From an uncultured Flammeovirgaceae bacterium (GTDB lineage: Bacteria; Bacteroidota; Bacteroidia; Cytophagales; Cyclobacteriaceae), in contig CAKZYJ010000114.1 in assembly GCA_937884755.1 (NCBI GenBank), positions 1 to 64,000 on the forward strand: a stretch of DNA of 64,000 nt. The letters are read 5' to 3'. Below the pieces are notes generated by a model. The model saw nothing but the letters and a program-made list of their open reading frames with translations, was not told the origin of the DNA and made no database searches. Positions within the stretch are counted from its first letter, which is position 1. Each line of letters begins with the position of its first letter. A program made the position numbers and the translations under genes. Positions 58,526 to 64,000 of the stretch are shown in pieces.

Positions 58526-59881
58526 TTAAGTCTGGCGTAACTTTTCCCACGGTCCGGTTACAGCCAGCGTTAATCCTTCGTTTTGCACGTTGACAAAGAA
58601 AGTTTGTCCTGAGGGTGAAAAGCAGGCTCCTGCCAACTCAGAATCCGAACCTACGTTGCGCCCAATGGTGTAAATGTTACCCTCCGGCGTAATACCCCGA
58701 ATATGTGAGTCCGCCTTATCTTCTACCAGCACCACATCACCCCAAGGGGCTACGGTCAGGTTATCGCACGATTTGAGTAGGTCGGTATCATTGGGTTCGG
58801 CAAACAGGGTGAGGGTTCCGAGGGCTTCCTTTTCGCGAGAGGTTCCCTCGTAGGGACTAGGAATGTACTTAAATACTTGACCTGCTAACTCCCGACCTCC
58901 ATTAGTACAGGCGAAATAGACTTCGTTATTACCAAACCACATGCCCTCACCCCGAGCGAATAGAGCCGCTCCAGCAGCGTGCCCCCGTAATCGCAAATCA
59001 TCCTCCGTTGGCTCTACATCCTCTAGTGTAATCCAGCGGACAGGCAGTGGTTGGTTTACGGCAATTGCTTGCTCTTCCCAGTTCCGAGTATCCAACATAT
59101 GCTGACCCTCTACTACCAATGCCTGGAGTATTCCTCCCTGTTGCAATTTTTCCGGAGCATTGGGAATAAAACGGTAAATCAGGCTATCGCCCTGGTCTTC
59201 GGTTTGATACACAATGCTGGTAGTTGGGTCTACACATACAGCCTCATGGTTGAAGCGCCCCATAGCCCGTAGCGGCACTGGTTTAATTAATCCTTTTCCG
59301 CCTGCCGGAATTTCAAAGTTATAGCCGTGGGCAGTTTCGTGACCTTCACCAGCCGGAGTAACGTCTTCTTCGCAGCTAATCCAGGTGTTCCAAGGAGTAA
59401 GGCCGCCCGCGCAATTACGGTTGGTACCAATCAGACTTAGGTACTGCTCCTTAACGGTTTGGGTAGCTTCATCGTATACCACGGTGGTTGTACCGCCCAA
59501 TCCAGGTTTTTCGCCCGAACCGTAGTCAAAAAAGTTAGCTTTAGCCAGTTTCTGAAATAACACGTTATCTCCCTTAAAGGGACCGAACTCGGTGGGCGTG
59601 GGGCTGTTCTCGTGGTTACGAACCAGTACCACCTGGCTATTCACATCAAAGGCAGCCATTCCATCGTGCCGGTTAGGAACAAAAAAACCGTCGCTCATTT
59701 TCTCCCCCCAGCGCGAGATAATTTTGGCGGTAAATCCTTCGGGTAACTCCAACCACTGCTTAGTAGGCGACCAATCGGTAGGAGCTATTGAACGAGCGTT
59801 AGAAAGATAACTAGACAGGCCGACAAAGCCTGCAGAAACAGCCAGCGACTGGCGCAAAAATGTTCTTCGGGAAGAATACAT
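58526..59881 (-). CDS. PhoX/DUF839 family phosphatase with Tat signal
   Basis: A 451-residue secreted alkaline phosphatase-like protein. The N-terminus has a twin-arginine signal, SSRRTFLRQSLAVSAGFVGL. DUF839 features follow: AAFDVNSQVVLVRNHENSP, GGTTTVVYDEATQ, LIGTNRNCAGGLTPWNTWISCEEDV, GRFNHEAVCVDPTTSIVYQTEDQGDSLIYRFIP, and LFARGEGMWFGNNEVYFACTNGGRELAGQVFKY. PhoX enzymes use Ca and Fe and act on phosphate esters. The adjacent metallophosphoesterase makes a phosphate-acquisition role plausible. A TatA gene lies at 50960. Confidence 0.9.
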   Translation of the reverse strand: MYSSRRTFLRQSLAVSAGFVGLSSYLSNARSIAPTDWSPTKQWLELPEGFTAKIISRWGEKMSDGFFVPNRHDGMAAFDVNSQVVLVRNHENSPTPTEFGPFKGDNVLFQKLAKANFFDYGSGEKPGLGGTTTVVYDEATQTVKEQYLSLIGTNRNCAGGLTPWNTWISCEEDVTPAGEGHETAHGYNFEIPAGGKGLIKPVPLRAMGRFNHEAVCVDPTTSIVYQTEDQGDSLIYRFIPNAPEKLQQGGILQALVVEGQHMLDTRNWEEQAIAVNQPLPVRWITLEDVEPTEDDLRLRGHAAGAALFARGEGMWFGNNEVYFACTNGGRELAGQVFKYIPSPYEGTSREKEALGTLTLFAEPNDTDLLKSCDNLTVAPWGDVVLVEDKADSHIRGITPEGNIYTIGRNVGSDSELAGACFSPSGQTFFVNVQNEGLTLAVTGPWEKLRQT

Positions 59882-61583: not shown

Positions 61584-62171
61584 ATGAGTTTCAATCTACT
61601 AAAGGCTAACTTCTTGAAGCATACTAGCTTGACAGATGACGAGCTAAATAGTATCAACCATTATTACGAAGAAAGACAGGTAGACAAAGGAGAATATATA
61701 CTTAGGCAAGGAGATATTTGTCGCTTCGAGGGTTTCGTAACAAAGGGTTGCTTTGAGATCTCGACTACTGATTCTCAAGGCAATGAGAGGATTTTATACT
61801 TCGCAGCACAAGATTGGTGGGTCATGGAGATTGATAGTTTTATTAGTCAAACCAGTTCGGAGCTAGATATAAAGGCGATTGAACCCAGCCGATTATTGGT
61901 AATTACGAAAACCGATAAGGAAAAGCTCTACCAAGAAGTCCCAAAAGCGGAGCGTTTATTCCGAGTTATGTCCCAACGAGCGGTTGTTGCCTGGCAAAGA
62001 CGATTAATAAGAAATCATACGATGACTGCCGAAGAGCGCTATTTTCATTTTTTGAAAACCTATCCAGAAATCTCACAACGGATTACCAATAAACAGATAG
62101 CCAGCTATCTAGGCATCACTCAGGAGTTTGTAAGTAAAATCAGGAAAAAAAACCTTAGTAGAGGAAAGTGA
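61584..62171 (+). CDS. Crp/Fnr family transcriptional regulator
   Basis: A 195-residue regulator, likely controlling the genes downstream. The N-terminal effector domain reads YYEERQVDKGEYILRQGDICRFEGFVTKGCFEISTTDSQGNERILYFAAQDWWVMEIDSF. The C-terminal winged helix is MTAEERYFHFLKTYPEISQRITNKQIASYLGITQEFVSKIRKK, with the recognition helix at TQEFVSKIRK. There is no cysteine cluster, so oxygen sensing by iron-sulfur is unlikely. Two palindromes of FNR-like layout lie 20 and 639 bases downstream, in front of secreted-protein genes. No such site is seen in its own promoter. Confidence 0.92.
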   Translation: MSFNLLKANFLKHTSLTDDELNSINHYYEERQVDKGEYILRQGDICRFEGFVTKGCFEISTTDSQGNERILYFAAQDWWVMEIDSFISQTSSELDIKAIEPSRLLVITKTDKEKLYQEVPKAERLFRVMSQRAVVAWQRRLIRNHTMTAEERYFHFLKTYPEISQRITNKQIASYLGITQEFVSKIRKKNLSRGK

Positions 62172-62190
62172 TTATAGGGTGAATCGTTTA

Positions 62191-62204
62191 TTGAACTAGT
62201 TTAA
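62191..62204 (+). promoter_or_regulatory. Putative Crp/Fnr-family activator site, copy 1
   Basis: TTGAACTAGTTTAA, one base off a perfect 14-bp palindrome; layout TTGAA-N4-TTCAA, close to the FNR site TTGAT-N4-ATCAA. Its centre (62197.5) is 29.5 bp before the -7 element at 62227-62234. That puts it near -41.5, and the -33 position reads GGG instead of TTG. This is the layout of a class II activated promoter. Confidence 0.7.
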
Positions 62205-62226
62205 GGGTTTTGATAATCGCATCTCA

Positions 62227-62234
62227 TAAGTTTG
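62227..62234 (+). promoter_or_regulatory. -7 element of the 62260 gene
   Basis: TAAGTTTG, a full match to TAnnTTTG, 26 bases before the ATG at 62260. The expected transcript start is about 62239. Confidence 0.65.
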
Positions 62235-62259
62235 CAATCGATATCAAAAATCCTCAAAA

Positions 62260-62784
62260 ATGAAATATCCCATTTTAATCATCACTGTTTTGTTCTGGTC
62301 AGGATTGTGTGCTGATGTGTTCGGTCAGAAAGTGGGAACGTATGTTTTTGCCAGAACCCCACAATTAATGAACTATAATTTCGAGAGCAAACAAGCTACC
62401 TATACCCAGGGTATTTCTGCCGGAGTGGGGCTATATCATAAATCCAAGTTTTTAGAATTAGCGACTTTCATCTTTGATGGAAACTCCTACGGATATTATA
62501 CTTTCTTTGGTACTACGCTAAAATCTACGGATTTGGGCAAATCGTTTAAGTTAAATACGAACTGGTTTGGTGAAATCACGACCTTGCCGTCACAACCAGA
62601 AATATCTAACCCTACATGGATATACACTAGTGGAATATGTCTCTTACCGAATGTTCAAATCCAAAAACTAAACGTGGGAGTAGCCATCTGTTCGGGAATT
62701 GCCTATCAAGATGAAGCATTTAGTTTCAATAATAGATTCATATTCAACCTGTCGTATTCTTTAGCTAGAAATAAATCGAAATAG
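62260..62784 (+). CDS. Secreted protein of unknown function
   Basis: A 174-residue exported protein with signal peptide ILIITVLFWSGLCADVFGQ. The mature part (VGTYVFARTPQLMNYNFESKQATYTQGISAGVGLYHKSKFLELATFIFDGNSYGYYTFFGTTL, later WIYTSGICLLPNVQIQKLNVGVAICSGIAY) has alternating aromatic and small residues and ends in FIFNLSYSLARNK, compatible with an outer-membrane barrel or beta sheet. No family is recognised. It sits under the first TTGAACTAG palindrome, so it is predicted to belong to the local Crp/Fnr regulon. Its signal peptide resembles that of the GlcG-like protein at 62880. Confidence 0.72.
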   Translation: MKYPILIITVLFWSGLCADVFGQKVGTYVFARTPQLMNYNFESKQATYTQGISAGVGLYHKSKFLELATFIFDGNSYGYYTFFGTTLKSTDLGKSFKLNTNWFGEITTLPSQPEISNPTWIYTSGICLLPNVQIQKLNVGVAICSGIAYQDEAFSFNNRFIFNLSYSLARNKSK

Positions 62785-62809
62785 AAAATCGGCTGATCTC
62801 TAACGTTTA

Positions 62810-62823
62810 TTGAACTAGTTCAA
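62810..62823 (+). promoter_or_regulatory. Putative Crp/Fnr-family activator site, copy 2
   Basis: TTGAACTAGTTCAA, a perfect 14-bp palindrome. Its centre (62816.5) is again exactly 29.5 bp before the -7 element at 62846-62853; the -33 position reads GGA. The surroundings (CGTTTATTGAACTAGTT, then AAGG, TTTTGA, TTTGCA) match copy 1, so the whole promoter is a duplicated unit. Confidence 0.75.
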
Positions 62824-62845
62824 GGATTTTGACCACTGTATCTGT

Positions 62846-62853
62846 CATCTTTG
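62846..62853 (+). promoter_or_regulatory. -7 element of the 62880 gene
   Basis: CATCTTTG, one base off TAnnTTTG, 27 bases before the ATG. A weak -7 and a missing -33 suit an activator-dependent promoter. Confidence 0.55.
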
Positions 62854-62879
62854 CACTTAAATAAAAAGTTCACTGGAAA

Positions 62880-63362
62880 ATGAATCGAGCCGTAATCATC
62901 GCCACCCTTCTATTTTGGTTCAGTATTACTTCTGAAGTTTTTGGTCAACTGCAACTGCCAGGCGACCTCACTACCGAACAAGCGATGATGATCTTAAACG
63001 CGGCTGAAGAGAAAGCTGCTTCCGAAGATATTCTAATTAATATTGCTATTGTTGACGCAGGAGCTAACCTGAAATCATTTTTACGGATGGATGGGGCTTA
63101 CCTGGGAAGTATTGATGTTGCCATCAAAAAAGCAAAAACCGCTCGTCTCTTCAACGGCCCAACCGGTGAACTTGGTAAAATAACGCAACCCGGTGGAGCT
63201 ATTTACAATATTGAGCACTCCAATGATGGGCTGATTACCTTCCCAGGAGGTGTGCCAATTAAAGATCAAGACGGTACAATCATCGGAGCTGTTGGGATTA
63301 GCGGTGGTACCATAGAGCAAGATCACGATATAGCTACGGCAGCGGCTGAGTCCATTTTATAG
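62880..63362 (+). CDS. Secreted GlcG/HbpS family (DUF336) protein, putative heme- or ligand-binding
   Basis: A 160-residue protein of the GlcG/HbpS family. The signal peptide is VIIATLLFWFSITSEVFGQ. The domain is complete: TTEQAMMILNAAEEKAASEDILINIAIVDAGANLKSFLRMDGAYLGSIDVAIKKAKTARLF, then GAIYNIEHSNDGLITFPGGVPIKDQDGTIIGAVGISGGTIEQDHDIATAAAESI. HbpS relatives bind heme and sense redox state; others work beside dehydrogenases. Which applies is unknown. It lies under the second TTGAACTAG palindrome and next to a beta-propeller protein. Confidence 0.88.
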   Translation: MNRAVIIATLLFWFSITSEVFGQLQLPGDLTTEQAMMILNAAEEKAASEDILINIAIVDAGANLKSFLRMDGAYLGSIDVAIKKAKTARLFNGPTGELGKITQPGGAIYNIEHSNDGLITFPGGVPIKDQDGTIIGAVGISGGTIEQDHDIATAAAESIL

Positions 63363-63381: not shown

Positions 63382-64000
63382 ATGAAAATACTACACCTAA
63401 TACTTCTACTACTATCGACTTTCATTGGACAACTACTTTACGCCCAACCGCAGTTTTCTATTAATGAGGTTGATTCTGCTGAAACTTCAGGGAATACCGT
63501 GACTTGCGTGGTGCATCAGCAAGGTGCTCGGTATTTTTTGTACTCAGGCGGAGATCATGCGTTTCTGGATGCTTTTGAGATAAGTACTAATGGTGATCTA
63601 ACTCCGATTGAAAGCTACGAGACACCTACAACGAGAAACAGGGCAGGCTTAGTAGGTTTACGCGGAATTGTGACAGATACGGTGCATGGAAAGAATCTCC
63701 TCTTTGCCGGACTGAAAGGAGAAGGAGCAGTAGAAGTCTTCGAGATCCAAAATAATGGTGAACTGAAAAAGGTATTTCTGCTCGAGGATACCGACTCTAC
63801 CTACGTGGATGTGGTCATTACTTTGCAAGTAGTTCACATGGAAAATGATAGCTATCTCTTTGTTGGCGGATTGGAGAAGCAGCCCGGTATGAGTTCCTAT
63901 AAAATTATGCCAGATGGAAGCTTGGAACATATACAATCCAAGCCCGATACGGATGAAATATTCAACGACGGCATTATCGGTATGTCGTTGCACCGAGTAG
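63382..64000 (+). CDS. Secreted beta-propeller protein, lactonase-like (3' end missing)
   Basis: The frame is open from ATG 63382 to the window edge (206 codons seen). The signal peptide is LILLLLSTFIGQLLYAQ. Propeller-like repeats follow: YFLYSGGDHAFLDAFEISTNGDLTPIESYETP, LLFAGLKGEGAVEVFEIQNNGELKKVFLLEDTD and YLFVGGLEKQPGMSSYKIMPDGSLEHIQ. The repeat pattern (F/Y-E-I/M, then G-x-L) is that of lactonase or WD-like propellers. It starts 19 bases after the GlcG-like stop, so they share a transcript and the copy 2 promoter. Enzyme activity is not shown by the part seen. Confidence 0.72.
   Translation, partial: MKILHLILLLLSTFIGQLLYAQPQFSINEVDSAETSGNTVTCVVHQQGARYFLYSGGDHAFLDAFEISTNGDLTPIESYETPTTRNRAGLVGLRGIVTDTVHGKNLLFAGLKGEGAVEVFEIQNNGELKKVFLLEDTDSTYVDVVITLQVVHMENDSYLFVGGLEKQPGMSSYKIMPDGSLEHIQSKPDTDEIFNDGIIGMSLHRV

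Follow-up and report, generated by a model that had tools for sequence, protein, structure and literature searches.

The 64-kb window, by which we mean the whole stretch of DNA analysed here, comes from contig C114 of the draft genome of an uncultured Flammeovirgaceae bacterium, an assembly of 8.35 Mb in 528 contigs that is 97.8% complete. Near its end, four genes follow one another on the + strand: a gene for a Crp/Fnr-like regulator (61584-62171), a gene for an exported protein predicted to form an eight-stranded beta barrel (62260-62784, hereafter gene1), a gene for an exported HbpS-like and EfgA-like protein (62880-63362, hereafter the HbpS-like gene), and the start of a gene for an exported beta-propeller of 402 aa (63382-64000), which continues beyond the window and is followed, outside it, by a gene for a Dabb protein. 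The beta-propeller gene (PF10282 Lactonase, 19.9 bits, with a cut-off of 21.7) is the next gene of a conserved operon, and similar genes occupy the same place in three related genomes, G125 (same genus), G090 and G007 (another genus). The regulator contains the cyclic-nucleotide-binding-like domain PF00027 (47.4 bits, above the cut-off of 27.5), and the HbpS-like genes of G125 and G090 are preceded by a homologue of it (90% and 65%). Set against the activators of known class II CRP/FNR promoters, it stands apart as a regulator of 195 aa whose C-terminal helix-turn-helix match, HTH_Crp_2 (PF13545), reaches 16.7 bits over residues 162-186 only, below the cut-off of 27.

The initial annotation had reported shared promoter elements at near equal spacing upstream of gene1 and the HbpS-like gene, and direct reading together with alignment confirms this: both promoters carry CGTTTATTGAACTAGTT(T/C)AAGG, TTTTGA and TTTGCA, equally spaced. 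Both also contain CGTTTATTGAACTAGTTYAAGG, the core of which is the palindrome TTGAACTAGTTCAA. The 14-bp palindrome common to the two promoters, TTGAACTAGTTYAA, lies at the same distance to the -7 box in each; located by pattern scan, it is perfect before the HbpS-like gene (operator 2, TTGAACTAGTTCAA, 62810-62823) and has one change before gene1 (operator 1, TTGAACTAGTTTAA, 62191-62204). The operator starts 69 nt upstream of the ATG of gene1 and 70 nt upstream of that of the HbpS-like gene, and the TTTG of the -7 box begins 26 nt after the operator at both. TTTTGA was considered as a -33 element and rejected: its distance of 14 nt to the -7 box falls several nucleotides short of the usual -33/-7 spacing, and it is absent in G090.

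Class II promoters of CRP/FNR activators have their activator site at -41.5. In Bacteroidota promoters the TAnnTTTG -7 box is numbered -12 to -5 in excerpts from PMC9723704 and PMC6847099, and this numbering, combined with the 26-nt distance, gives a predicted operator centre of -41.5. Transcription would then start at about 62239 from -7 box 1 (TAAGTTTG, 62227-62234) and at about 62858 from -7 box 2 (CATCTTTG, 62846-62853), the latter without the first T of TAnnTTTG. The distance from box to TTTG was 26 nt in 5/5 promoters, which matches a class II centre near -41.5 relative to a predicted start site. The motif common to both promoters is very probably an operator; palindrome and -7 box are functional sequence, which could be kept by selection alone.

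With up to two mismatches, the palindrome occurs at two sites in the window, where 0.27 are expected, and at least two sites were found in 1/100 shuffles. As a genome-wide motif it was rejected, since the whole genome holds 48 such sites versus 46 for the reversed pattern; only near-perfect palindromes with the right promoter spacing are therefore informative. Two near-perfect sites (C113:66124 and C358:22336) resemble coding sequence by eye and were set aside. At a third (G000:C7:18620-18663, locus L123), operator, spacing and -7 box all match without mismatch; it was not counted as a target, because that strand runs into the 3' end of the coding sequence of a Crp paralog, and the match is probably the product of a coding end and an operator behind the paralog's stop. 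On the opposite strand, this site points toward an AhpC/TSA gene. The operator plus TTTTGA pattern is present in 6 of 390 family genomes, and no leader of the kind described below was seen by eye at the corresponding sites of G024, G570 and G637, so that the promoter-leader block as a whole does not look widespread.

The palindrome recurs beside relatives of the regulator. In 15/29 homologous regulator genes the dyad TTRA-N6-TYAA, with six or more of its seven pairs, follows the stop codon within 70 nt, compared with 1/29 in equal windows upstream, 0/29 at +300 and an average of 0.06 in shuffles. The 29 loci are the 30 best-match regulator loci (L027-L056, the window's own included) less L044, which has a short flank. 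A slightly looser rule gave 21 boxes, three of which represent the present locus in the window, G125 and G090, and in 20/21 a TTTG lies at 26-27 or 49-50 nt (26 nt in seven, 27 in two, 49 in nine and 50 in two). Two loci at 49 nt, L042 and L046, have a second, weaker box in between, seen by eye in L046. The palindrome is probably the operator of this Crp/Fnr-like subfamily, and positions of about -41.5 and -64.5 are likely to be its general operator architecture. Beside these regulators or sites lie, among others, AhpC/TSA, metallo-beta-lactamase, SnoaL-like and flavodoxin-like genes and another HbpS-like gene. The subfamily is widespread, with a match at 1e-20 in 114/148 family genomes. A literature search returned the exact palindrome in no paper, and a limited search on Crp/Fnr proteins in Bacteroidota, covering the openings of abstracts, yielded no recognisable study of this subfamily.

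Downstream of the promoters, the likeness resumes in the signal peptides. Leader 1 (62260-62328) and leader 2 (62880-62948) are 23 aa each, both end in FGQ, and share 10 identical residues with a BLOSUM62 score of 60. The controls were 70 further signal peptides with an [AGS]Q ending, which a simple rule picked out of 464 kb sampled from this genome (the window plus 20 stretches, 354 ORFs); the best of their 2415 pairs scores 36, and 3/2415 pairs agree at 10 residues or more. With the Met and the last two residues removed, the leader core still scores 44 against a control maximum of 28. An exponential tail fit gives per-pair probabilities of about 2e-5 for the full leader and 7e-5 for the core, for a pair that had been selected for testing on account of its visible likeness; the tail-fitted 2e-5 is milder than a z-score suggests. 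Composition shuffles reached 60 in 0/200000 cases (best 56). The similarity of the signal peptides noted in the initial annotation is thus real by these measures, while the search it suggested for further copies of the leader elsewhere in the genome gave none: a query of the HbpS leader against the six-frame translated genome, at E up to 10, returned only itself and the leader of gene1 (E 0.109), and no third copy. At the DNA level, positions 62170-62340 matched themselves, the HbpS site (29 nt) and C494:71931-71965, the last being the A-rich start region of an unrelated ORF, which was dropped.

The region over which the two genes resemble each other has a clear downstream end. Leader DNA is identical at 40/69 positions (local score 16, z 6.0; 0/140 pool comparisons reach this score), with only 9/23 codon third positions identical, and the likeness ends at the leader's final Gln codon (62326-62328 and 62946-62948), identity falling to 23/69 and then 18/69 in the next two stretches. 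Mature-part DNA is at background (z -0.9; 129/140 pool comparisons reach its score), in keeping with the original observation that the mature parts show no resemblance. The UTR minus the operator (52 nt before the ATG) is also at background (z 1.6; 15/140 comparisons reach its score). Scored region by region, similarity therefore lies in the operator, the core promoter and the leader, and lies neither in the UTR nor in the mature part. Likeness that stops at the leader in front of unrelated mature parts is what a copied promoter and leader would show; DNA homology running unbroken from the operator to the end of the leader was not found, given the UTR at background. This excludes a recent intact copy and still allows an old one, and for the same reason promoter and UTR by themselves were rejected as a sign of copying.

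The two mature products belong to different families. That of gene1, encoded by 62329-62781, has no match in Pfam or NCBIfam at E 0.01. Modelled from a three-sequence alignment, it appears as an eight-stranded barrel (pLDDT 85.9, pTM 0.77) nearest to NspA (Z 12.9 over 142 residues, 3.1 A), followed by a designed barrel (Z 12.8), OprF (12.3) and OmpA (12.0), with a Foldseek E of 4e-4 at best. Fold and signal peptide together make it a predicted eight-stranded outer-membrane barrel. The model resembles NspA, OmpA, OprF and OmpW in fold (Z 11-13) and differs from them in sequence, at about 6-13% identity and with no Pfam or NCBIfam family assigned.

The neighbouring HbpS-like protein is a clear member of PF03928 (127 bits, cut-off 25), with EfgA as its best PDB match (6bws, E 2e-41). 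By our own reading of the alignment, it keeps the residues aligned with K57, S114, D121 and R42, the pocket residues of EfgA named in PMC8153426, when the crystal chain is numbered +20, as the residue identities require. It is thus nearest in the PDB to a formaldehyde sensor and has its pocket residues, yet carries a signal peptide. It shares its family with the EfgA/HbpS-like proteins and its pocket residues with EfgA; it is unlike them in its signal peptide and in its neighbours, a Crp-like regulator, a propeller and a Dabb protein. Streptomyces HbpS works with a sensor kinase, according to an excerpt of PMC4991794; among the ORFs neighbouring the HbpS-like gene none was recognised by eye as a sensor kinase.

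Related genomes show the arrangement without gene1. G125 lacks gene1: immediately behind its regulator come one operator, one leader and the HbpS-like gene (86%), and similar propeller and Dabb-like genes (by eye) lie downstream in unchanged order. G090 has the same gene order and the operator, and G007 has an HbpS-like gene with an operator-like site (two changes), its regulator lying about 5 kb off. Operator and ATG are 69, 70 and 69 nt apart for gene1, the HbpS-like gene and the G125 HbpS-like gene, versus 176 nt in G090 and 132 nt in G007. Among four genomes of the genus, the HbpS-like gene is present in two and gene1 in one, the window's own. The stretch from the regulator stop to the operator ends alike before gene1 and in G125 (AATCGTTTA / GAGTCGTTTA), so gene1's operator seems to be at the ancestral place; the HbpS-like gene, for its part, keeps the ancestral UTR, with 48/53 columns as in G125. 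A partial tandem copy would leave an operator at the ancestral site before gene1 and an ancestral UTR before the HbpS-like gene.

The leaders of gene1's own relatives are different. Seven clear relatives were found (L020, L021, L022, L025, L026, L087 and L088; L023, with E 2e-6 over 46 residues, and weaker matches were left out), the named ones coming from Reichenbachiella and a Flavobacteriaceae bacterium. Their leaders score -22 to 10 against that of gene1, which in turn scores 60 against the HbpS leader of its own genome (G000), 49 against that of G125, 8 against G090 and 31 against G007; the score of 31 may mean that some likeness is a trait of such leaders. These relatives, together with the single operator and leader of G125, support the copied promoter-and-leader that the initial annotation had proposed. 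The leader DNA of gene1 is identical at 40/69 and 37/69 positions to the HbpS leaders of G000 and G125, which are mutually identical at 52/69. Taken at face value, this would mean either that the copy predates the split from G125, gene1 having then been lost there, or that the leader of gene1 changed faster; a UTR at background and the greater distance of this leader imply an event that was old or was followed by fast change. In a separate observation, four of the seven relatives (L021, L022, L026 and L088) adjoin ada-type alkylation repair genes by Pfam; locus L087 is cut by its contig end, beyond which its downstream neighbour lies.

The reading we prefer, with a probability of about 0.7, is that the barrel gene received a copy of the EfgA/HbpS-like gene's 5' part and thereby came under the adjacent Crp/Fnr-like regulator. 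The ancestral order would have been the regulator, one promoter with a class II operator, the leader with the EfgA/HbpS-like mature part, the beta-propeller and the Dabb protein. In the lineage of the window, a copy of the promoter and leader of that EfgA/HbpS-like gene would have been fused, at the signal-peptidase site, with the mature part of an unrelated outer-membrane barrel. The barrel gene, which would now sit between regulator and donor gene, would thereby have acquired the regulator's operator at the same time as an export signal. The regulator, on some signal, would bind both dyads, contact RNA polymerase in class II geometry and turn on gene1 and the EfgA-like operon jointly, the like leaders then exporting the EfgA-like protein to the periplasm or the outside and the gene1 product to the outer membrane. 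In this scheme the binding and activation by the regulator, the direction of copying and its occurrence as a single event are inferred. What appears unusual is that operator and leader were apparently taken together from a neighbour, with unrelated mature parts.

Several other histories would leave a similar locus. The fusion could have been made in a related species with the same regulon, a ready-made promoter-leader-barrel gene then arriving by horizontal transfer. The patchy occurrence of gene1 would fit such an origin, with matches in 6/148 family, 8/390 order and 3/395 class genomes (overlapping draws, in which its own genome and weak matches with E near 0.001 are counted), as would a leader about equally far from both HbpS leaders, as if copied from a third lineage. 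Base composition, looked at as a sign of transfer, gave a GC of 37.5 for gene1, 39.7 for the regulator, and 45.2 for both the HbpS-like gene and the window, with no clear sign either way. Transfer nonetheless seems unlikely to us: gene1 stands exactly between the regulator and the donor gene, the left flank of its operator resembles that of G125, and the same promoter-leader-barrel fusion was found in no relative among the family, order, class and genus genomes or in a contig scan. We find a further possibility, functional convergence, improbable as well. Here the operator would have been acquired as gene1 became a member of the regulon, with leaders alike by chance or through shared export needs, and the functional constraint on operator and -7 box, the UTR at background, the many leaders of this genome that end in AQ or GQ, and the score of the G007 HbpS leader all accord with it. 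Against it speak a leader score far above the control maximum, the equal leader length, an operator-ATG distance that the two genes share and that differs in G090 and G007, and a genome search in which the HbpS leader returned, apart from itself, just its neighbour's leader.

Tandem duplication of the whole HbpS-like gene, one mature part then diverging past recognition, would also place two promoters and leaders side by side, and we regard it as highly improbable. It was rejected, as the mature parts are of different families and folds: mature gene1 has homologues in other genomes that form a family of their own (identity of 59% with L025 and 45% with L026) and is a predicted eight-stranded barrel, next to a PF03928 protein. 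A more specific form of the preferred copying of the 5' part is a regulon switch: this kind of barrel gene, which adjoins an ada alkylation-repair gene in four of its seven clear relatives, would here have moved into the operon of the Crp-like regulator by capturing a 5' part of the promoter-leader type of the exported EfgA-like, formaldehyde-sensor-like gene; we hold this to be unlikely. If true, the regulator-adjacent promoter-leader would be a ready-made port of entry, with exported stress proteins moving between electrophile-stress regulons by recombination at the signal-peptidase site.

The individual parts have known counterparts. The dyad is like the FNR box, TTGAT-N4-ATCAA. Class II CRP/FNR promoters are matched here by the dyad TTGA-N6-TCAA, the predicted centre at -41.5 and the adjacent regulator gene, and differ from the window's promoters, which are of the Bacteroidota type with a TAnnTTTG -7 box as described in parts of PMC9723704 and PMC6847099. 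As to the fusion, a literature search over the openings of abstracts brought up no recognisable case of a promoter and signal sequence copied together. One known kind of gene family has a constant promoter and signal peptide in front of differing mature parts, as in the variable surface lipoproteins of mycoplasmas. They are alike in the reuse of a 5' part with strongly different mature parts, and unlike in being many-copy antigen families, whereas the window has one copy, beside its presumed donor and tied to an operator.

A protein that is newly exported requires both a promoter and a signal peptide simultaneously. The locus offers a concrete natural example, on the reading we prefer, of a gene joining a regulon and an export path together, with a same-genus genome that shows the arrangement without the newcomer, and it yields a candidate operator for a widespread Crp/Fnr-like subfamily. 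Elsewhere in the window, a PhoX-like gene (58526-59881) was not seen at the corresponding place in G125 (L093), while the adjoining purple acid phosphatase-like gene is present in both.
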